NCBI GenBank assembly: GCA_900321905.1
Contig: ONXZ01000107.1
Coordinates: 2,399 to 13,786 of the forward strand
Origin: an uncultured Eubacteriales bacterium
Lineage (GTDB): Bacteria; Bacillota; Clostridia; Oscillospirales; Acutalibacteraceae
DNA length: 11,388 nucleotides
Reading direction: 5' to 3'
Below the pieces are notes generated by a model. That model saw only the letters and a program-made list of their open reading frames with translations, was not told where the DNA came from and did no database searches. Below are positions 3,001 through 11,373 of this stretch, piece by piece. The stretch's first letter is position 1. Each line of letters opens with the position of its first letter. The position numbers and the translations under genes were made by a program.

Positions 3001-4517
3001 TTGTTGTCGTCGTCGCCGATTTTAAGGCTTGTGATTGTGTCGCTTGAGCAGTTGTTAAGGCGTGATATGAATGTTGACTCGCTCGTTTCGGCAATATTCT
3101 GCACAATGTTGCCGCCGTCGTCTGTGATATACGCCTTAAATGTGCTGCCGGTAAACTCTGCAACATAGTGGTAGTTCACGCCGACAGAGAGTTTGCCGTT
3201 ATTAGCGGTGATAGATGTTGAGCGCGAGCGGCTTCCGGCGTTGTGACCGTCGTCCTGCCACGAGTAGCAAACACCGTTTGCGTTTTGCGAAAAATAGCAG
3301 TAGTCCGCGTTTGCATGCGCAGGGGCGGCAAATCTGTCGGTATACACATACATTTTCAAAAATGTGTAGTTGCTGCCCATGTAGTACGAAATACTGCTGC
3401 TGTCCGAAGTCTTGAAGCGGAAGCCAAAATCAAGTTTCCAACTCGACAGTCCGCTTATCGGCACCGAGCCGCTGTTGTGACCTGACATATAAAGGTATCC
3501 GTCAGGGATATAAAGCGTGCCGTCATCAGATAGCGACGCGTCACCGTTTTGTGTGTAAACGCCTGTTGCCCACGCCATTTTGCTGCCCTGGTCGTTGTAG
3601 GTGTCAACTTTGCCGAGGTTCCCGTTTGTAACAGCGCTCTCAAGCGTGGTGAAATCTGAGGACGCAATCGCAGTCCAGTCGTCAGAAACGGACTGTTCCT
3701 CACCGGTGTAGAACGTTATGTTCCTGTATTCAAGTCCTTTATAAAAGTAATAGTTATCGTCGTCGCCGATTTTAAACGCGGTTATCGCTTCTGACGAAAT
3801 ATTGTTAAGGCGAGCAATAAAAGTTGAGTCGTTCGACTGCGCAATAACCTGAACAGGCTTGCCGCTGTCATCGGTGATATACGCGCTGAAATAGTCGCCC
3901 GTGAACTCCGCAACGTAGTGATAGTCCACGCCCGCTTCAAGTTTGCCGTTGTTTGCGGTAATCGAGGTTTCCTGCGACTGCGTACCTGCATTGTGACCGT
4001 CGTCCTGCCACGAGTAGCAAACACCGTTTGCGTTTTGTGCAAGGTAACAGTAGTCGGCGTTTTTGTGCGCAGGGTTTGCGAATTTGTCGGTGAAAACGTA
4101 CATTTTCAGGAATGTATATTCATCGCTGTTAAAATATTCATCATCGCCGCTTTCGGCAGATTTAAAGCGAAAGCCGAAATCAAGTTTCCACTGCGACGCA
4201 CCTGTAATCGGCACCGATCCGCCGCTGTAACCAGACATATACATATAGCCGTCGGGTAGGTAAACTGCGCCGTCTGTAACAGACGGATTTTCGTTCCATT
4301 CGTTAGCGTTCCAGGTGATAGCGTTGCCTTGCTCGTTATATGTCGACGGCGTAAAGTCGGCGCCGTTTGTTATATTCTCAACGCTCGAAAAGTCAGAGGA
4401 CGCAACTGCTGTCCACTTGACAGAAGCCGCAGCAGAAAAAGGCGTCGCCAAAACAACAGGTAACGCCATAACTACTGCGAGAACTATCGCAACAGTTTTT
4501 TTATATAACCTTTTCAT
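1..4517 (-). CDS. Large secreted multidomain glycoside hydrolase, clan GH-A-like (C-terminus beyond window)
   Basis: The frame is open without a stop for 1505 codons from the ATG at 4517 and runs off the left edge, so the C-terminus is missing. Residues 1-31 are a signal peptide (MKRLYKK, hydrophobic core, then FSAAAS). Two tandem LamG/ConA-like modules follow at about 35-272 and 281-522. About 525-880 looks like a clan GH-A (beta/alpha)8 barrel, perhaps GH39- or GH5-like: the LFNEPD motif holds E672 as likely acid/base and LLVNEYAR holds E783 as likely nucleophile, 111 residues apart. A CBM6/35-like module starts with YEAEDA at 972 and ends near 1125; a second CBM-like beta-sandwich spans about 1233-1394; a helical FIVAR-like segment spans about 1406-1478. 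The protein probably acts outside the cell on a plant or host polysaccharide; the substrate cannot be read. An AAGGCGG ribosome site (4526-4532) lies 8 nt before the start. Exact GH family is uncertain. Confidence 0.85.
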   Translation of the reverse strand, partial: MKRLYKKTVAIVLAVVMALPVVLATPFSAAASVKWTAVASSDFSSVENITNGADFTPSTYNEQGNAITWNANEWNENPSVTDGAVYLPDGYMYMSGYSGGSVPITGASQWKLDFGFRFKSAESGDDEYFNSDEYTFLKMYVFTDKFANPAHKNADYCYLAQNANGVCYSWQDDGHNAGTQSQETSITANNGKLEAGVDYHYVAEFTGDYFSAYITDDSGKPVQVIAQSNDSTFIARLNNISSEAITAFKIGDDDNYYFYKGLEYRNITFYTGEEQSVSDDWTAIASSDFTTLESAVTNGNLGKVDTYNDQGSKMAWATGVYTQNGDASLSDDGTLYIPDGYLYMSGHNSGSVPISGLSSWKLDFGFRFKTSDSSSISYYMGSNYTFLKMYVYTDRFAAPAHANADYCYFSQNANGVCYSWQDDGHNAGSRSRSTSITANNGKLSVGVNYHYVAEFTGSTFKAYITDDGGNIVQNIAETSESTFISRLNNCSSDTITSLKIGDDDNKNFYKGLEYRNFTFYTKDKNSIHFDMSRREKLYKGSTGFLYGEAEINVPSIDLLQGLQPDTMVQKAYAGKQHPTGDAVRTGSALLSAGAKDMQIYLQDHYLEWPYDAPYKDGEIDLDGYQKTVEEILYAMICDDAEQGDEGAFLGSDGKYHVLNSTAENYSYVLFNEPDQIWYGGNLEGLERAWKKIYDAVHAIDPDARCAGPNFSVFNADSYNSFLEYCYNNNCLPEIISWHELGDGSIIHFYNNYDSVKSMQKTYYTDAYAAKTGRNYQPELLVNEYARHFVKWLAMFEDKNMSGCMAYWAMSNTLNEMAADQNSPSSTWWVYHWYAQMTGKQCPLVSPGFAKTRFYGLTTYDEDINTAYVLFGGGNNGTMGETVNLDKLNFTNLKNNNGAVNVKVYAVSFSGQLGANYKPEVVYDGTMRTEDNSLEITVQNTDEMQAYFAVVTKPDDGVTAGENEPLSYPVQSYEAEDAKLLGGATAYPKTGWTSFATSGRADVGNVNNNGDGVKFTVDVPEDGKYKASLFYSMQAPYVDPQSLEPDANGQNRGIGKALPYGVWLDSQRLDDISLESTVVWAYKNHCDIEIYLTAGTHTLTFEHINGDEGSKGNLQLVAALDKLDLSKIKGDENDFEISLSEMKSFKENGGYRVTAIAPAEGYYTVSASGSFELKKQCVDYAADAKSFSTCSVYDTPVGKTVFLAKGANTLFVEGTVSTLTFTYQGDTTAEQSTVINSSDITLVGDNPKLKSSAYADSGNVITDLGIGQSPAEGDKATDNYAVFCVNVPSSGVYNFSIRYSNDEPAPIMQKEDGSTYIHPYNIDLVERYAQISVNGAEPETVYFKNTLSWDTFRTVNVQFELRQGKNTVKIYNDNSYQFSNLVNSTAPEIDKITVSRLTSNGEKAERAEYSVDDSALKAAIAAAQRYVSDEYGFENTSALEALIEKYKNYSANTNTQEQIDAATCEILTAITDLKPYLNLTVKAENGTADVDVISQSSSDGKYNVLF
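3241..3287 (-). repeat. 47-nt exact direct repeat in LamG module 2 (partner 3991-4037)
   Basis: Positions 3241-3287 are identical to 3991-4037, exactly 750 nt (250 codons) apart and in the same reading frame. The segment encodes QNANGVCYSWQDDGHN in both LamG-like modules of the large glycosidase. The surrounding module sequence is only partly similar, so this is the most conserved core of an internal domain duplication. Confidence 0.9.
3991..4037 (-). repeat. 47-nt exact direct repeat in LamG module 1 (partner 3241-3287)
   Basis: This is the second copy of the exact 47-nt repeat, in the N-terminal LamG/ConA-like module. The bases on each side differ from the partner (a versus g before it, t versus c after it), which fixes its borders. 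Confidence 0.9.
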
Positions 4518-4735: not shown

Positions 4736-4764
4736 TTGATTAGGGATTTTTGCTGTGTTATAAT
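4736..4764 (+). promoter_or_regulatory. Sigma-A extended -10 promoter of the sigma-factor operon
   Basis: TTGATT (4736-4741), a 17-nt spacer and a perfect TATAAT (4759-4764) preceded by TGT, an extended -10. The predicted start, near 4771, lies just upstream of the shared 42-nt element, so a transcript from here would carry that element in its leader. The second copy of the element near 10311 has no comparable promoter ahead of it. Confidence 0.7.
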
Positions 4765-4783: not shown

Positions 4784-4825
4784 TTTAGGCATATTTTGAT
4801 TTTCGAGCCACTAACAAGTGAAAGG
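4784..4825 (+). promoter_or_regulatory. Shared 42-nt upstream element, copy 1 (sigma operon)
   Basis: This segment aligns without gaps to 10311-10352, with 38 of 42 positions identical (differences at 4798, 4804, 4806 and 4815). Two blocks are invariant apart from one base: TTTAGGCATATTTT (4784-4797) and GCCACTAAYAAGTGAAAGG (4807-4825). The second block holds an imperfect dyad, CACTAA/CAAGTG. TTTAGGC and CCACTAA are 17 nt apart, a spacing that would suit a -35/-10 pair of an alternative sigma factor. An RNA leader function is the other option. The conservation is seen directly; the role is inferred. Confidence 0.7.
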
Positions 4826-4850: not shown

Positions 4851-5402
4851 ATGCTGTTGAGTCAGGTTAAGCAAAAAGCGGACGCACTGTTAACCGAAGC
4901 GTATGAAAAGTATAATACACAACTTATCAAGTTTTGCTACACGAAACTGCTTGAGGATAAAACCGTAGCAGATGATATTGCGCAGGAAGCAATGCTTGTT
5001 TATTATAAGCGGATGCTCAAGGGTGAAGAATTTGAAAAGCCGCTCGCCTTTTTATATCAAACGGCGCACAATCTTTGCAAGAACGCAAACAAAAAGGCGA
5101 CTAAACAGGCAATGCGAACAGTTCCGCTCGAAAATGCAACTGACGTAGCAGCACAGGAGGAGAATTCGCGGGCAAGCGAACTCGACTACGACGAAATCAA
5201 AGAAAAACTGCTTGAAAAACTCAGCGAGCAAGAGTTAATGCTCTATCAACTGAAATATGTTGAAAACAGGTCGTTAAAGGAAATATCCGAAATGATGGAT
5301 ATTTCACCGAATGCGGTAGCCAAACGAACGCAACGGCTCAGGTCAGTAATTAAAGAATTAGTTGAGCCGACATTATCAATCTACGAAGGGAGGTATTCAT
5401 GA
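4851..5402 (+). CDS. ECF-like RNA polymerase sigma-70 family factor
   Basis: This 183-residue protein (181 if TTG 4857 is the start) has the two-domain plan of ECF sigma factors. Region 2 is at about 18-85, with DDIAQEAMLVYYKRM followed by PLAFLYQTAHNLCKNANKK, the core-binding and -10 recognition part. After a short acidic linker, region 4 is at about 116-171, with LSEQELMLYQLKYVENRSL and the helix-turn-helix LKEISEMMDISPNAVAKR. It should direct RNA polymerase to a specific promoter set. It is first in an operon and overlaps the next gene by 4 nt (ATGA), so translation is probably coupled. The 42-nt element directly upstream, repeated before the gene at 10390, is a candidate for its own recognition sequence. 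The ECF subgroup cannot be named from sequence alone. Confidence 0.88.
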   Translation: MLLSQVKQKADALLTEAYEKYNTQLIKFCYTKLLEDKTVADDIAQEAMLVYYKRMLKGEEFEKPLAFLYQTAHNLCKNANKKATKQAMRTVPLENATDVAAQEENSRASELDYDEIKEKLLEKLSEQELMLYQLKYVENRSLKEISEMMDISPNAVAKRTQRLRSVIKELVEPTLSIYEGRYS

Positions 5403-6058
5403 TGAATGTTAAAGTTAACGAAAGCATACTCAACATTGTGTTGAATGATGAAATATTTAAAAGTGAATTAATCGAATTTTTAAACGAAGTAGTTGACGCC
5501 GAGCTTGAAAAAGGCAACGAAATGGATACCGACCTGATTGAGGACTGCACCGAGATTATCTTTGACCTCGAAAACGGATACGAGGTTATGGAGTTTGAAA
5601 GGGAAAAAGCAGAAAAAATTATTAGGCTTTTCAACAACAAAACAGAGAAGAAGAAAATAAATTACAAAAAGGTTTTAATCGCTGCTATTGCTGCTATTAT
5701 GGCAATGACTGCAACTACTACGGTTTTTGCAGATGAAATCAACTATTTCCTGCATCAGATTGTAGACATTATAAACGAAGTAAGCGAAGGCGAAGAATTT
5801 GATGATAAGTATATTTCACTAATATTTGTTCCGCCGGACGGAGCGCCAACAACTGTTAAATCAAAAAAAGATATTAACCTGGAAGGATATTACTGTGTGG
5901 TATTTTGCGAGAACGGCGATGAGAAAACAGTACCGATTTCGGATTGCCAAACTATAATAAAGAAAACCACAGGCGACGACGGAAAGAAAAAGTATACGGT
6001 CGCGGCATATTACAAGGGTGCTAAAGGTGCAATTAGTTTTGATATCGAGGAGGACTAA
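5399..6058 (+). CDS. Single-pass membrane protein, putative anti-sigma factor
   Basis: This is a 219-residue protein whose start overlaps the sigma-factor stop; ATG 5402 is an alternative start, 8 nt after GGGAGG (5388-5393). Residues 1-90 are an acidic, helical, probably cytoplasmic region. A hydrophobic helix at about 92-111 follows a basic KKKINYKK stretch, which suggests the N-terminus is inside. Residues 112-219 would be an extracytoplasmic domain. Position and topology fit a membrane anti-sigma factor that holds the sigma factor until an outside signal arrives. No HxxxCxxC zinc anti-sigma motif is visible and no family was recognised by eye, so the function rests on context. An alternative reading is a secreted protein with an unusually long N-terminal extension. 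The stop is 1 nt from the start of the repeat protein gene. Confidence 0.65.
   Translation: MMNVKVNESILNIVLNDEIFKSELIEFLNEVVDAELEKGNEMDTDLIEDCTEIIFDLENGYEVMEFEREKAEKIIRLFNNKTEKKKINYKKVLIAAIAAIMAMTATTTVFADEINYFLHQIVDIINEVSEGEEFDDKYISLIFVPPDGAPTTVKSKKDINLEGYYCVVFCENGDEKTVPISDCQTIIKKTTGDDGKKKYTVAAYYKGAKGAISFDIEED
6047..6053 (+). promoter_or_regulatory. Ribosome binding site deciding the repeat-protein start
   Basis: GAGGAGG sits 6 nt before ATG 6060, which begins a clean signal peptide (MKKAVSF). An earlier in-frame ATG at 6018 lies inside the anti-sigma-like gene and has no such site, so 6060 is the start chosen. Confidence 0.75.
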
Positions 6059-6059
6059 A

Positions 6060-7502
6060 ATGAAAAAAGCCGTTTCATTTATATTAGCAATAATCATAGC
6101 CACAGGCGCACTGCCTTTTACGGGCTTAACAGCATTTGCTGAAAACACTGAACTTACAGCAGGCTCTTGCGGAGAAAATGCCACATATTCATTTGACAGC
6201 GGAACAGGAACGCTTACAATCAGCGGAACGGGCGAAATGACAACATATTCATCGTCCTCACAGTCACCGTTCAGTAATCATTCTGAAATTAATGCTCTCG
6301 TTGTTGAAGCGGGCATTACAAGCATAAGCGATTTCGCGTTTGTATATTGTACCGGAATGGAATCGGTTTCCTTTCCGAATACACTGGAAAAAATCGGCGT
6401 TCAGTCGTTTCTACATTGTAAAGCGCTTACCGATATAGTTATCCCTGACAGCGTTATTGAAATGGGTCACTTCGTTTTTGCCGATTGTTCAAAACTGGAA
6501 AATGTTACCCTTTCATCAAGCCTTACTGAAATTGTTGATAATGCATTTGCCGAAACAGCAATTAAAAGCATTACCATTCCGAGCGGTGTAAAAAAGATTG
6601 ATGATATGGCGTTTTATAATTGTGAAAATTTGGAAACAGTATCGCTGCCCGAAGGACTTACTGAAATTGACATTGCTGCGTTTTCTTTAGATATTAATTT
6701 AAAAAACATTACGCTGCCAAGCACAATTACTAAAATAGGCACCCAAGCATTTGCAGGTTGTAATTCTATTGAAGAACTAACCCTGCCGGCAAGCCTGCAG
6801 TCGATAAGCGACAGTGCCTTTGCAAATATAAAGTATGTCTCTTACGTGCCAAGCAAATACCAAAACGATAATTCTTATATGGGACTTAAAAAACTCACTG
6901 TGCTTAGCACCGATTGTGTGTTTGAAAGCAGCAGCGGAAACGAGGAAGGACAGTTGTTCCCCGGTGGTGCCACAATAAGTTGTTATGCCGGATCCACCGC
7001 AGAGGCGTTTGCCAAAGGAAAAAACATCAATTACGTAAATATCTGTATTGACGGAACCGAAAATCATAATTTTGTTGACGGAGAAGAGTATTGCCAAAAA
7101 GGCTGCGGAGCTGATAACCCTGCAACAAGAACATACAGTGGTACCTATAAAGATAGCATAAGTTGGGTAGTAAACGCCGCTAAAAAGACGCTTACGTTAA
7201 GCAGCGTTAACGGTTCTGCCTCAATTCCTGCGCGCGATGGAATAACATCAACTGAACAACCTTGGTACGGATATCAAGAGTATTTCAACAAGATTATTAT
7301 TGAAGAGGGTATCACCTCAATAGGAGATATCGCATTTTCATACTATGAAAATGTAAACAGCATAGAGCTTCCGGAAAGTTTGAACAGCATAGGCGAATCT
7401 GCATTTGGATATTGTACGGGTCTTGAAAGTCTGATTATACCGAGTGGCGTAACAGAACTGGGTGATGACGCTTTTCATCGCTATCTATTTCATCAGCCAT
7501 AA
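6060..7502 (+). CDS. BspA-type leucine-rich-repeat surface protein, 5' part (frameshifted)
   Basis: This 480-residue frame is the first part of a longer secreted protein. Residues 1-27 are a signal peptide (MKKAVSF, hydrophobic core, AFA/EN). From residue 35 comes a GSCGENATYSFD...TLTISGTGEM cap, then about eight BspA-type repeats of the LxxIxIPxxVxxIgxxAFxxC kind to about residue 265, then a linker with ATISCYAGSTAEAFA, ENHNF and CQKGCG. A second cap-plus-repeat module begins near nt 7134. The frame breaks within LGDDAF, adds HRYLFHQP and stops, while the matching continuation is in the -1 frame. BspA-type proteins are generally surface adhesins; the ligand is unknown. The gene is third in the sigma/anti-sigma operon. 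Confidence 0.85.
   Translation: MKKAVSFILAIIIATGALPFTGLTAFAENTELTAGSCGENATYSFDSGTGTLTISGTGEMTTYSSSSQSPFSNHSEINALVVEAGITSISDFAFVYCTGMESVSFPNTLEKIGVQSFLHCKALTDIVIPDSVIEMGHFVFADCSKLENVTLSSSLTEIVDNAFAETAIKSITIPSGVKKIDDMAFYNCENLETVSLPEGLTEIDIAAFSLDINLKNITLPSTITKIGTQAFAGCNSIEELTLPASLQSISDSAFANIKYVSYVPSKYQNDNSYMGLKKLTVLSTDCVFESSSGNEEGQLFPGGATISCYAGSTAEAFAKGKNINYVNICIDGTENHNFVDGEEYCQKGCGADNPATRTYSGTYKDSISWVVNAAKKTLTLSSVNGSASIPARDGITSTEQPWYGYQEYFNKIIIEEGITSIGDIAFSYYENVNSIELPESLNSIGESAFGYCTGLESLIIPSGVTELGDDAFHRYLFHQP
6214..6235 (+). repeat. 22-nt exact repeat in module 1 cap (partner 7773-7794)
   Basis: Positions 6214-6235 equal 7773-7794 and sit in the same codon phase, encoding the TISGTG motif of the cap in modules 1 and 3. 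They mark the internal duplication of the repeat protein. Confidence 0.8.
7059..7078 (+). repeat. 20-nt exact repeat in the ENHNF linker (partner 8489-8508)
   Basis: Positions 7059-7078 equal 8489-8508 and encode ENHNFV just before the C-x3-GCG linker in modules 1 and 3. With the cap repeat, this shows that module 3 is a close copy of module 1. Confidence 0.8.
7469..7502 (+). other. Frameshift site within the repeat protein gene
   Basis: The frame of the 5' part stops at 7500-7502, and the -1 frame is open only after a TGA at 7466-7468, so the switch must lie in 7469-7499. A run of four T at 7472-7475 is the obvious place: a fifth T would read GAT GAC GCT TTT TCA and join both frames. No slippery heptamer of the X-XXY-YYZ type is seen. 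The joined sequence also looks a little short for a complete repeat here, so a somewhat larger deletion is possible. Confidence 0.75.
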
Positions 7503-10225
7503 TCCCTGACACTGCAACGATTTACGGTTATTCAGGTTCAACAGCACAAACTTTTGCAAACAATTACAGCCGAGAGTTTGTAGTTGTTTGCGCAGAGGGA
7601 ACAGATAACCACCTGTACGCCTTAGAAAGCACGGAAGAAACACCAACAGCAGTAACGTATAAATATACTTGCCCTGTATGCAAAAACAGTTATACAGAAA
7701 CTGTTGAACACTATGAAACAGGCTCCTGCGGCGACAATGCAACATACTCTTTAAACACCAACACGGGAGTAATTACAATCAGCGGAACGGGCGATATGTC
7801 AAACACACAGCCGTGGAGTGACTATCTTAGCGTTATTACAGAGGTGGTCGTAGAAGAAGGAATTAATAACATAGGCGGTTTTCAGAACGCAACAAATCTT
7901 AAGAAAGTAACACTCCCGACAAGCGCCAAAGTAATATACAACCATGCCTTTTCCTGGTGTTCAAATCTCACTGATGTTGATTTGGGCGGTGCAACATATA
8001 TTAATGGTTCATTTATGTATTGCACATCACTGTCCTCAATTGAAATTCCTGATACTTGCACGGAATTATACGGCGGCACATTTGAGGGGTGTACAAATTT
8101 AACAAGCGTCAGTTTACCTGATAATATGACAAGCATAGGTTATTTTTGCTTTTACAATTGCAGAAAACTTTCCTCTGTAACGCTGCCGTCTAAATTAGAG
8201 TATATATATCCTAATTCTTTTTATAACTGCAAAAACTTAACGGAGTTAACTGTTCCCGCAAGTGTAATTGAGGTATACGGATATGATGAAGAACAGGCAA
8301 ACAACGGTTTAGCTTTTTTAGGTTGCAGTTCATTAAAGACAATGACCTTTTTGGGAGCCGAAACAGCTATTACCGACAACGAGCAGGTTATACCGGCAAC
8401 TACGATTAGAGGTAAAGCAAATTCTCCGGCACAGGCTTATGCCGAAAAATACAACCGTAGTTTTGTTACTATTTGCACTGACGGTTCAGAAAATCATAAT
8501 TTTGTTGAAGTTGAAGAGCACTGCCTTAACGGTTGCGGCGCTGTTAATCCGGATTATGACAGCATATACCGTGGATATTGCAGTGACGACCACAAAGCAT
8601 ATTGGCATTATGACGCGGGTACAGCCACACTGACTATTACGGGTACGGGACCTGTCAGCGATGGTCAGCCTTGGAGTGCATTTTTGTCTTCGATTGAATG
8701 TGTGGTTATTGAGGACGGAATCACTGCTATCGGCGCAAGTAACTTTAAGAATTGCACAAAGTTGCAAAGCGTTACAATACCTTTATCGGTGACTACTGTC
8801 GGAAACTCTGCATTTGCAGGCTGCAACAGTTTAAGAAGCATAACAATTCCCGCCGAGGTAAGCGAAATAGGCGAAAGTGTTTTTGACGGCTGTACTAATC
8901 TTGTTTCTATTAATTATCAGGGAACTATGAAAAGCTGGAACAGTCTTGACATAACTCAGCCCAAATCAGTTGTAGTTGTAAGCGGAGACGGCGAATATAA
9001 AATTAACGAGGAAGATGAAACGAAATTTGCCGTTACTGACAATGTTATATACACTTCAGATAAAAGCGTTCTAATTAAAGTTATTGAGGAAAAAGAGGTT
9101 GAAGTCTATACCGTTCCGAGCGAAGTAAGAGAAATAACCGAGGGTGCATTTGAAAAACTTGAAGCAAGCGAAATAGTTATCAATGATACAGTAGATGAGA
9201 TAGGGTCGTACTTATTTGGACTTAGTCCCGATGACAATATTCCAAACGTAATTTTCTTTTCGGGAGAAAACACGGAGATAGCAGCAAATACTTTATTTGG
9301 ATGTGAAAGCGACGACACCGAAGTTATTGATGATTATAATAGTAACCTAAAGTTATTTTCACTAAACAATAATGAAAACAATTTGCCGAAATATTCGAGA
9401 GCCGGCAATTCCAAACGCGGAAAGAATACGGTTATTTATTGTATCTATAACAGCAAACAATACAAAAAACTTAAATACGGCAAAGTTAAGACTTTCTCAC
9501 CAAAAAAGATTGCAGCATGCACATATACGGGCAGGCAAATCAGACCCGGAGTTGAAGTTTACGACGCGAGAAAAAACAAAACAATTTCAAAGTCAAACTA
9601 CAGAGCCGAATACGGTAAGAACTTGAATGTTGAGGATAAAAAACACAATTTTGTTGTCGTTTTACCCGGCAAAAATTATGACCTCGGAAACCAAACTGTT
9701 TTTTTAAACTTCTTTATTGTGCCTAAAGCTGCCTCGGCAAATCTTGTTTCATTAAAAACAACATACTTCACGTATAACGGCAAGGTTAAAAAGCCGGGAA
9801 TTAACGCAAAGGTTGACAAGAGCAACTATACGGTTACATACCCTTCAAACGGATATGTAGGCAAAAAAACAGTAAAAATCAAGTTCAAAGGGAACTATAA
9901 AGGCACTGTGTCTAAGACTTATACTATTGTTCCTCAAGGCACAAAGGTAAAGTCTCTCAAAAAGAACAAAAAATCCGTAATAGTTAAATGGAAAAAACAG
10001 AGAGCGCAAGTCACAGGTTATCAGGTACAATACAGCACAAGCAAAAGATTTACAGCAAAAACTACTAAAACCGTGACTGTGAGAAGTTCAAAGACAACCG
10101 CGAAAACAATTAAAGGACTCAGGAGCAAAAAGAAGTACTATGTTCGTATTCGCACTTATAAGACTGCTAACAGAAAAAACTATTTCTCCGCATGGTCAAA
10201 GGTTAAGTCTGTAAAAACAAAATAA
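7469..10225 (+). CDS. BspA-type leucine-rich-repeat surface protein, 3' part with Ig-like and Fn3 domains
   Basis: The coding frame is recognisable from just after 7469: IPDTATIYGYSGSTAQTF and CPVCKNSYTETVEHY continue the module broken upstream. The first ATG is 7796 and has no convincing ribosome site; no in-frame GTG or TTG precedes it. Counting from 7796 (809 residues), a third module (cap at nt 7721) has BspA repeats to about residue 200 and an ENHNF...CLNGCG linker near 227-248. A fourth module runs from about 258 (YRGYCSDDHKAYWHYD). Two Ig-like domains (YTGRQIRPGVEVYD and YNGKVKKPGINAKV types) lie near 566-640 and 649-712. A very basic Fn3-like domain, about 715-809, ends in KSVKTK. There is no LPxTG, so anchoring is unknown. 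With the 5' part, the intact protein would be about 1388 residues. Confidence 0.85.
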   Translation, partial: RFSSLSISSAIIPDTATIYGYSGSTAQTFANNYSREFVVVCAEGTDNHLYALESTEETPTAVTYKYTCPVCKNSYTETVEHYETGSCGDNATYSLNTNTGVITISGTGDMSNTQPWSDYLSVITEVVVEEGINNIGGFQNATNLKKVTLPTSAKVIYNHAFSWCSNLTDVDLGGATYINGSFMYCTSLSSIEIPDTCTELYGGTFEGCTNLTSVSLPDNMTSIGYFCFYNCRKLSSVTLPSKLEYIYPNSFYNCKNLTELTVPASVIEVYGYDEEQANNGLAFLGCSSLKTMTFLGAETAITDNEQVIPATTIRGKANSPAQAYAEKYNRSFVTICTDGSENHNFVEVEEHCLNGCGAVNPDYDSIYRGYCSDDHKAYWHYDAGTATLTITGTGPVSDGQPWSAFLSSIECVVIEDGITAIGASNFKNCTKLQSVTIPLSVTTVGNSAFAGCNSLRSITIPAEVSEIGESVFDGCTNLVSINYQGTMKSWNSLDITQPKSVVVVSGDGEYKINEEDETKFAVTDNVIYTSDKSVLIKVIEEKEVEVYTVPSEVREITEGAFEKLEASEIVINDTVDEIGSYLFGLSPDDNIPNVIFFSGENTEIAANTLFGCESDDTEVIDDYNSNLKLFSLNNNENNLPKYSRAGNSKRGKNTVIYCIYNSKQYKKLKYGKVKTFSPKKIAACTYTGRQIRPGVEVYDARKNKTISKSNYRAEYGKNLNVEDKKHNFVVVLPGKNYDLGNQTVFLNFFIVPKAASANLVSLKTTYFTYNGKVKKPGINAKVDKSNYTVTYPSNGYVGKKTVKIKFKGNYKGTVSKTYTIVPQGTKVKSLKKNKKSVIVKWKKQRAQVTGYQVQYSTSKRFTAKTTKTVTVRSSKTTAKTIKGLRSKKKYYVRIRTYKTANRKNYFSAWSKVKSVKTK
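7773..7794 (+). repeat. 22-nt exact repeat in module 3 cap (partner 6214-6235)
   Basis: This is the second copy of the cap repeat. It ends two bases before ATG 7796, which means that ATG lies inside a conserved motif (SGTGDM) and is unlikely to be a natural gene start. Confidence 0.8.
8489..8508 (+). repeat. 20-nt exact repeat in the ENHNF linker (partner 7059-7078)
   Basis: This is the second copy of the linker repeat, in module 3, directly before the EEHCLNGCG cysteine motif. Confidence 0.8.
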
Positions 10226-10240
10226 TCTTACCTCTTTGTT

Positions 10241-10275
10241 GACTCGTCGGGCTGCGGCTCGGCGGGTCCTTTTTT
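10241..10275 (+). terminator. Intrinsic terminator of the sigma/repeat-protein operon
   Basis: A 12-bp stem (10241-10252 with 10257-10268, all positions paired, three of them G-U) closes a TGCG loop and is followed by a run of six T (10270-10275). It lies 15 nt after the stop at 10223-10225 and separates the operon from the last gene. Confidence 0.88.
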
Positions 10276-10310
10276 GCGTTAAATAGCTATTTTAAAAAAT
10301 TTTAAAAAAG

Positions 10311-10352
10311 TTTAGGCATATTTTCATTTTAGTGCCACTAATAAGTGAAAGG
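10311..10352 (+). promoter_or_regulatory. Shared 42-nt upstream element, copy 2 (last gene)
   Basis: This is the partner of 4784-4825, with 38 of 42 identical. It lies between the terminator and the gene at 10390. Here the dyad is CACTAA/TAAGTG, slightly better than in copy 1. No sigma-A promoter of good quality is visible upstream, and the region is A/T-rich (runs of A around 10294-10309), so the element is the best candidate promoter for this gene. Confidence 0.7.
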
Positions 10353-10377
10353 GTTAAAAAATCTTAAAATTCAGATT

Positions 10378-10381
10378 GGAG
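10378..10381 (+). promoter_or_regulatory. Ribosome binding site deciding the last gene's start
   Basis: GGAG lies 8 nt before ATG 10390, which opens onto a normal signal peptide. The in-frame GTG at 10345 is inside the conserved element, has no ribosome site and would add 15 residues before the signal peptide. Confidence 0.65.
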
Positions 10382-10389
10382 AAGAAAAG

Positions 10390-11373
10390 ATGACAAACAC
10401 AAAAAGATTAACAACAAAAAAAGCAATATCCTTTGCGCTTGCAATTATAATTATGCTAAGCACATTTTCAGGTATGAGCTTTAATGCTTTAGCAAAAGAC
10501 AAAAATCAGCCTATTTACAGTTTTAGCGGCTACTTTGAGGAGTGGAATGAGTACAAGCATTACACTATTCCTGTTGAAAGTCCGCGAGATTACAGCAAGG
10601 TTTACAGAATTGAATACACCTGTGAAAACTATAAAATGAAGGTTTCTGTTAATACAGGAATCGGAACGGATGATTATCAAGGATACGAAGGATATATTAA
10701 TCTTTTCACAGATGAGACGAGTTTAGGATACAGCGTTAATTTGCACCCTATAACAACAAACAATGAAAAGAAGAATTTTAAGCGTAGTATGTGGACTTAC
10801 AAGGTTTATGACATTACTCCTGAAACCAATGTCGTTTCAGTAAAACGTAATGGTAAATCACTTAAAATTACATGGAATAACGCAGGTGTAACGGGTTATA
10901 AAATTGTCGGTGGCTATGAAAACCGCAAATGGGGCGATTGCTTTTATACAACGGGAACAGAGTTTACAATAACGAACATTGATGAGTATTGTAACTATCA
11001 GTTTAAGATTTATCCGTATTATGAATTAGATGCAAATACCACTTATTATTTTAAGCCAACCAACATAACAACCTCTCGTGCAACAAAAGTTAAACCTCCA
11101 AAGGCAACTTCTATCAAGTCGCTCAAAGCGGGAAAGAAATCCTTTAAGCTTACAGTGAAAACAATTCAAAACGTAGCAGGATATCAAATCCAGTACGGCA
11201 CAAAGAAAAACTTTAAGGGTGCAAAATCTGTTAATATTAAAGCAACAAAGAAAACGATTAAAAAACTTAAGAAAAATAAAAAATACTACGTAAGAGTGAG
11301 AACATTTAAGGTTGTTAACGGCAAGAAAGTATATAGTAAGTGGTCTGCAAAGAAAGTCGTAAAGACAAAGTAA
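10390..11373 (+). CDS. Secreted protein with two Fn3-like domains
   Basis: This is a 327-residue protein. Residues 1-35 are a signal peptide (TTKKAISFALAIIIMLSTF, then FNALA). Residues 36-145 are an aromatic-rich beta-type domain (YSFSGYFEEWNEYKHY, IGTDDYQGYEGYINLF) that I do not recognise. An Fn3-like domain follows at about 146-230 (VVSVKRNGKSLKITWNNAGVTGYK) and a second, very lysine-rich Fn3-like domain at about 238-327 (GYQIQYGTKKNF, KKYYVRVRTF, ending VVKTK). The last domain resembles the C-terminus of the repeat protein upstream, which suggests a common way of binding the cell surface. There is no LPxTG or membrane anchor. The gene is cut off from the operon by a terminator but has its own copy of the 42-nt element. 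Function is unknown; no catalytic motif is seen. Confidence 0.82.
   Translation: MTNTKRLTTKKAISFALAIIIMLSTFSGMSFNALAKDKNQPIYSFSGYFEEWNEYKHYTIPVESPRDYSKVYRIEYTCENYKMKVSVNTGIGTDDYQGYEGYINLFTDETSLGYSVNLHPITTNNEKKNFKRSMWTYKVYDITPETNVVSVKRNGKSLKITWNNAGVTGYKIVGGYENRKWGDCFYTTGTEFTITNIDEYCNYQFKIYPYYELDANTTYYFKPTNITTSRATKVKPPKATSIKSLKAGKKSFKLTVKTIQNVAGYQIQYGTKKNFKGAKSVNIKATKKTIKKLKKNKKYYVRVRTFKVVNGKKVYSKWSAKKVVKTK

Follow-up and report, generated by a model that had tools for sequence, protein, structure and literature searches.

A predicted ECF sigma promoter before a sigma operon and surface-protein genes of uncultured Clostridia

The sigma operon and the two copies of the element

The window, i.e. 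the whole stretch of 11,388 nucleotides analysed here, carries on its forward strand an operon that begins with an ECF sigma factor (4857..5402). The protein matches TIGR02937, Sigma70_r2 and Sigma70_r4_2 above the cut-offs and no further sigma region, which is the domain composition of an ECF sigma. Judged by conservation among the orthologs, its start is likely the TTG at 4857 behind GGGGAGGTG, with GTG 4818 and ATG 4851 as alternatives. The second gene (5399..6058, forward) encodes a putative membrane anti-sigma factor of 219 aa, with N-terminal helices, one apparent transmembrane stretch and a beta-rich outer domain. Domain profile searches found no known anti-sigma domain in this sigma-neighbour protein, and a fold search with its structural model (mean pLDDT 61.6, i.e., low confidence) gave no match at E <= 0.001. 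In 45 of 48 sigma loci, which are the better-scoring part of the matches to the sigma, the ORF that a script picked behind the sigma gene has a similar N-terminal motif (approximately LNxxIDxELxK...LIDxC, by eye). Nothing was picked in L016 and L039, and in L021 the pick is the sigma itself, although its named copy L098 has the gene.

The third operon gene encodes a BspA-type LRR surface protein. It is split here into a first ORF (6060..7502, forward), which matches Pfam LRR_5 and whose frame ends at 7502, and a second ORF (7796..10225, forward) with a C-terminal Fn3 domain, found from the ORF list and Pfam. In all five orthologous loci the gene corresponding to 6060-10225 is a single ORF. The second ORF is followed by a terminator-like stem-loop and a T run (10241..10268, forward), and then by a gene for a secreted protein with a C-terminal Fn3 domain (10390..11373, forward; PF00041 above cut-off, signal-like N-terminus by eye).

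A 42-nt element had been noticed twice in this stretch, at 4784..4825 and 10311..10352, both on the forward strand. The reported gapless match of 38 of the 42 positions was reproduced when recomputed, and so was the single-base difference in the second block, GCCACTAAYAAGTGAAAGG. The surroundings are indeed unrelated, as the adjoining 30 nt match at 17 of 30 positions upstream, where the sequence is A/T-rich, and at 8 of 30 downstream. The placing is also as described: copy 1 stands before the sigma gene and copy 2 between the terminator-like stem and the Fn3 gene at 10390. By comparison with the 38 matches of the real sequence, the best ungapped pair of 42-mers reaches 27-30 in 20 Markov-1 simulations of the window. 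Only one direct pair in the window is better, with 42 of 42 matches at 3241 and 3991; it lies within a large minus-strand ORF of a secreted protein and suggests duplicated domains there.

Upstream of copy 1 there is a sigma-A-type promoter, TTGATT-17-TATAAT with TG before the -10 (4736..4764, forward), the presumed basal promoter of the sigma operon. A similar promoter precedes the ECF site in four of the five orthologous leaders (9-10 of 12 matches), and a weak one in L021 (7 of 12). This arrangement suggests that the operon has both basal and autoregulated expression. No forward sigma-A-like promoter was found before copy 2 in the scanned stretch 10100-10500.

Sigma orthologs, matching sites and the genes behind them

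Relatives of the window sigma are present at E <= 1e-20 in 43 of the 80 genomes of the genus, the window's own included, and close orthologs with 81-91% identity in five of the 79 others. Five named records contain the sigma at 81-91%; they come from uncultured or metagenome-assembled Eubacterium, Clostridiales, Clostridia or Ruminococcaceae, and two of them name goat reticulum and red deer. No viral copies of the sigma were found in IMG/VR.

All five orthologs have TTTGGCATAT or TTCGGCATAT-N13-CCACTAA before the sigma gene, giving the joint pattern TTNGGCATAT-N13-CCACTAA. The exact AGGCAT form matches in one of the 80 genomes, the window's own, because the orthologs carry TGGCAT or CGGCAT. 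In that genome (G000; 1.76 Mb in 274 contigs, 84% complete) the two window copies are the only matches when the element is sought in a 37-nt form and as many as three mismatches are allowed. Since the own genome shows only these two sites, the regulon rests on the relatives.

The 80 genomes were scanned with the joint pattern, allowing up to two mismatches, and with the reversed pattern as a control. All 14 exact matches fall in the six ortholog-bearing genomes (G000 2, G155 2, G164 3, G190 3, G194 3, G213 1); these include the six sigma-gene sites that served to build the pattern, and window copy 2, which was known beforehand. Six further matches with one mismatch occur in these genomes and one elsewhere (G154). 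The reversed pattern, which was not split by mismatch number, equals or exceeds the pattern in many genomes, with six against two matches in G000. As the control is equally frequent, the two-mismatch matches are regarded as mostly chance, and only those with zero or one mismatch carry weight. In genomes without the ortholog, 22 of the 25 matches examined, one per genome, sit inside ORFs.

The expected co-occurrence of site and sigma is seen, with exact sites in six of six sigma genomes and none of the 74 others. When the sigma-gene sites and the own genome are left out, exact sites remain in four of five against 0 of 74 genomes (p = 3.3e-6), and sites with at most one mismatch in five of five against one of 74 (p = 2.7e-7).

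To describe the genes behind the sites we used 21 sites: the 14 exact ones, six with one mismatch and one with two (G190:C20). The last was chosen by eye, while three other two-mismatch matches in ortholog genomes (G155:C59, G190:C117 and G194:C26) were left out, and the set is thus not a blind sample. Six sites stand before sigma genes and 15 do not. Behind 14 of these 15 lies a gene whose N-terminus resembles, by eye, a signal peptide, a lipoprotein signal or a membrane segment; the remaining site, G190:C80, is followed by a small ORF and then the contig end. Seven of the 14 first genes contain Fn3, LRR_5 or a transglutaminase core above the Pfam cut-off, and in one more a transglutaminase match falls below it. 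The other six show none of these matches, although Fn3, CAP or transglutaminase occurs in the following gene for some of them. Of all 19 proteins in the Pfam scans, seven gave at most a match below the cut-off. Some of the sites in G190 and G194 are on contigs other than that of the sigma.

The first-pass annotation had expected such sites within 150 nt of the starts of secreted or surface genes. The kind of gene agrees, as these are secreted or membrane proteins, but the distance holds less strictly, since several sites lie 125-180 nt upstream of the first ORF of at least 70 aa. Sites inside genes had been named as evidence against a regulon; by a mechanical rule six of the 21 overlap an ORF of at least 100 aa, but these ORFs were judged over-extended or spurious.

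A small conserved ORF of 31-34 codons (29 by one start choice), ending in ...RVNMLFISYVVAA or close to it, is present in five of the 80 genomes, precisely those with the 81-91% orthologs; the window's genome sequence (84% complete) yielded no copy. Eight of its ten copies are behind GGCAT-type sites and two behind GACAT-type sites (L076:12120-12212, also L077, L079, L080, L083, L084, L085 and L120), mostly with a clear ribosome site. The start is 50-58 nt after the -10 in seven copies and 38-68 nt in another, depending on the start codon; the two remaining copies lie about 300 nt after the -10, with another small ORF in between. Its C-terminus (VVAA, ILAA) is like an ssrA degradation tag and resembles the tmRNA tags of three carrier genomes (..TVLKAA or PVLKAA).

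In three loci the first gene behind such a promoter encodes a small membrane-like protein of 74-97 aa (L077:11263-11496, L084:1684-1977 and L120:4751-4972); the two of these that were scanned have no Pfam match. A short pair of a G-run and a C-run (GGGGTAAGAAACCC and alike) directly follows the conserved TGAAAGG in the target leaders of L076, L077, L080 and L085, and is absent from window copy 2. A leaderless ORF starting at the conserved RTGAAAGG was also considered, and taken as a coincidence, though both window copies run in frame into the gene. At the 19 sites of the relatives, RTGAA is missing from two, while the frame stops within 24 codons at 13 and extends over 36-47 codons at four.

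Two paralogous sigmas have neighbouring sites of other spellings. On contig C189 of the window's own genome (L123), a paralog has its own site, TGTCACATTTT...TACTA, before the gene. The two sites there, at 153-190 and 4313-4350, have the same direction; the second contains one mismatch and lies about 60 nt behind the paralog's surface-protein ORF, and no plus-strand gene was recognised between it and the contig end. A scan with the C189-type pattern gave two matches, compared with one in the reversed control. On contig C22 of G213 (L120), a sigma with the helix ANRTSRLR has lost its own leader at the contig end. Three GACAT-type sites lie behind this sigma; large secreted proteins follow two of them and a 74-aa membrane-like protein the third (domains by eye). 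From these two paralogs, the layout therefore seems to recur with other promoter spellings.

The family motif and its covariation with the sigma

Of the 48 sigma loci, 47 have enough upstream sequence (L088 was dropped, and the truncated L042 is not included). A search assuming one site per sequence gives a gapless 38-nt motif that scores above 15 bits in 40 of the 47 leaders, while seven have no good site. The motif totals 924 bits against 151-173 in four mononucleotide shuffles, although it was trained on the same sequences. The family consensus is TgTGAcATATTTT...ttTttgg.GACTActatATGAA.

This alignment sets the register of the promoter boxes. The first-pass annotation placed them at TTTAGGC and CCACTAA, 17 nt apart; these places agree with the predicted boxes, but the family register is AGGCAT, a 16-nt spacer and CACTAA. 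In copy 1 the -35 hexamer is then 4787..4792, as indicated by both the register and the covariation described below, and the -10 hexamer 4809..4814; in copy 2 they are 10314..10319 and 10336..10341, all on the forward strand.

According to the available part of PMC8103513, classical ECF promoters have AAC in the -35 and CGT in the -10, and classical ECF sigmas have a co-transcribed cognate anti-sigma gene and positive autoregulation. A departure from the AAC-type -35 had been claimed for the element. It holds for the clade of the window, which has GGCAT, but other clades of the same family have the near-canonical GTCAAC, GTTAC and GTCAC. The CGT of the -10 is absent, with CACTAA here and mostly GACTAC elsewhere in the family. 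The -10 is the more unusual half of the promoter, rather than the -35.

The distances between promoters were compared with those between sigma regions in 39 sigmas (L021 was dropped because its match contains a stop). For the -35 distance the correlation is r 0.69 with sigma region 4 and 0.55 with region 2; for the -10 distance it is 0.38 with region 2 and 0.17 with region 4. When the respective other region is controlled for, the partial correlation is 0.51 between the -35 and region 4 and 0.385 between the -10 and region 2, values that 0 of 500 permutations reached in either case. Part of the covariation is explained by shared descent, since both sigma regions show a correlation with the spacer distance as well (r 0.26 and 0.31). 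The correlation of the -35 is weaker with the recognition helix alone (r 0.50, partial 0.28) than with the whole of region 4. Helices ending in AKRTQRLR go with GGCAT, ANRTSRLR mostly with GACAT or GATAT, AKRLQRLR with GTCAAC and SM(R/K)L.RL(K/R) with GTTAC. Recognition by the sigma would predict such a pairing of the -35 with region 4 and of the -10 with region 2, and an independent operator would not.

The element could instead be the operator of a separate DNA-binding regulator acting on the sigma operon and the surface genes, with other promoters doing the transcription. The good sigma-A promoter just upstream of copy 1 would suit such an arrangement; however, the scanned stretch before copy 2 has no forward promoter of this kind, the distance between the two blocks is constant at 16 nt in 40 of 47 leaders, and the two halves covary with different sigma domains. 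We consider an operator very unlikely. That no forward promoter to transcribe copy 2 was found in this stretch also speaks against an element acting as RNA in the 5' leader, for instance as a CACT-AAYA-AGTG hairpin. Copy 1 could be transcribed, since the sigma-A promoter stands upstream of it, and CACT can pair with AGTG in both window copies. However, the full 4-bp stem exists in only 13 of the 21 sites, no pair is changed on both sides in the 13 aligned sites, and the window has no Rfam match at gathering scores; the hairpin was therefore rejected, and a role as RNA is highly improbable. The 38 of 42 identical positions within a single 5.5-kb stretch might suggest that copy 2 arose by a recent duplication or as a mobile fragment and has no function. 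This is hardly credible given the unrelated flanks, the presence of additional sites before other genes in each of the five ortholog genomes (in G213 with one mismatch) and the G190 and G194 sites on contigs other than the sigma's.

We conclude that the 42-nt element is very probably a promoter, recognised by the ECF sigma of 4857-5402 and serving both its operon and the secreted Fn3 gene. At the sequence level, the same site is found before sigma and target genes, is conserved, co-occurs with the sigma, stands before surface genes in the relatives and covaries with the sigma, which supports the autoregulated ECF regulon that had been proposed.

Proposed switch and relation to known systems

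We suggest that copy 1 would be the autoregulatory promoter, about 23 nt behind a sigma-A promoter providing basal expression, and that copy 2 would drive the gene of the secreted Fn3 protein. The membrane protein of the adjacent gene would presumably hold the sigma inactive until an outside signal, which we infer, frees it. The freed sigma could then transcribe its own operon, i.e., the sigma, the putative anti-sigma and the BspA-type protein, as well as a small regulon of surface-protein genes.

Such a site would be a readable promoter code for a sigma group of uncultured Clostridia, for some of which the records name a ruminant source. It also predicts which surface proteins switch together. 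The paired changes in region 4 and the -35, and in region 2 and the unusual -10, are natural test pairs for promoter choice and insulation among ECF sigmas. There is perhaps an even chance that these Clostridia contain an undescribed family of ECF switches, with an ACTA-type -10, a clade-specific -35 set by region 4, insulated paralogous circuits each with its own set of Fn3/LRR proteins, and a conserved 31-34-residue peptide with an ssrA-like end, co-expressed in many of the transcripts. No description of the sigma clade was found in titles and abstract openings among the literature matches listed, which did not cover the main ECF reclassification; its absence from print is not proven by this.

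The operon resembles canonical autoregulated pairs of ECF sigma and anti-sigma, having a sigma with regions 2 and 4, a membrane protein gene next to it and its own site before the operon. The T-tract after the -35 and the 16-nt spacing are also as in canonical ECF promoters; in Bacillus these have the form TGAAAC-N16-CGTCTA. The closest solved sequence to the window sigma is SigW, 5wuq. However, in contrast to the canonical pairs, the -10 is CACTAA/GACTAC rather than CGT-type, the -35 in the window clade is GGCAT, the partner has no recognised anti-sigma domain, and the predicted regulon consists of Fn3/LRR-type surface proteins. For C. difficile, the available part of PMC7438776 describes the consensus sequences of its three ECF sigmas as still to be identified.

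A second comparison is with SigI/RsgI of cellulolytic clostridia, as far as the available part of PMC6056542 describes them. There too, a genome has several autoregulated pairs of a sigma and a membrane anti-sigma, specificity is set by the -35, and the targets are extracellular. However, in SigI a SigI-C domain replaces region 4 and the -35 has an A-tract, while the window sigma has region 4 and its promoters a T-tract; the targets of SigI/RsgI are cellulosome parts, while here they would be Fn3/LRR-type proteins. The SigI systems are the closest functional parallel to the predicted switch.
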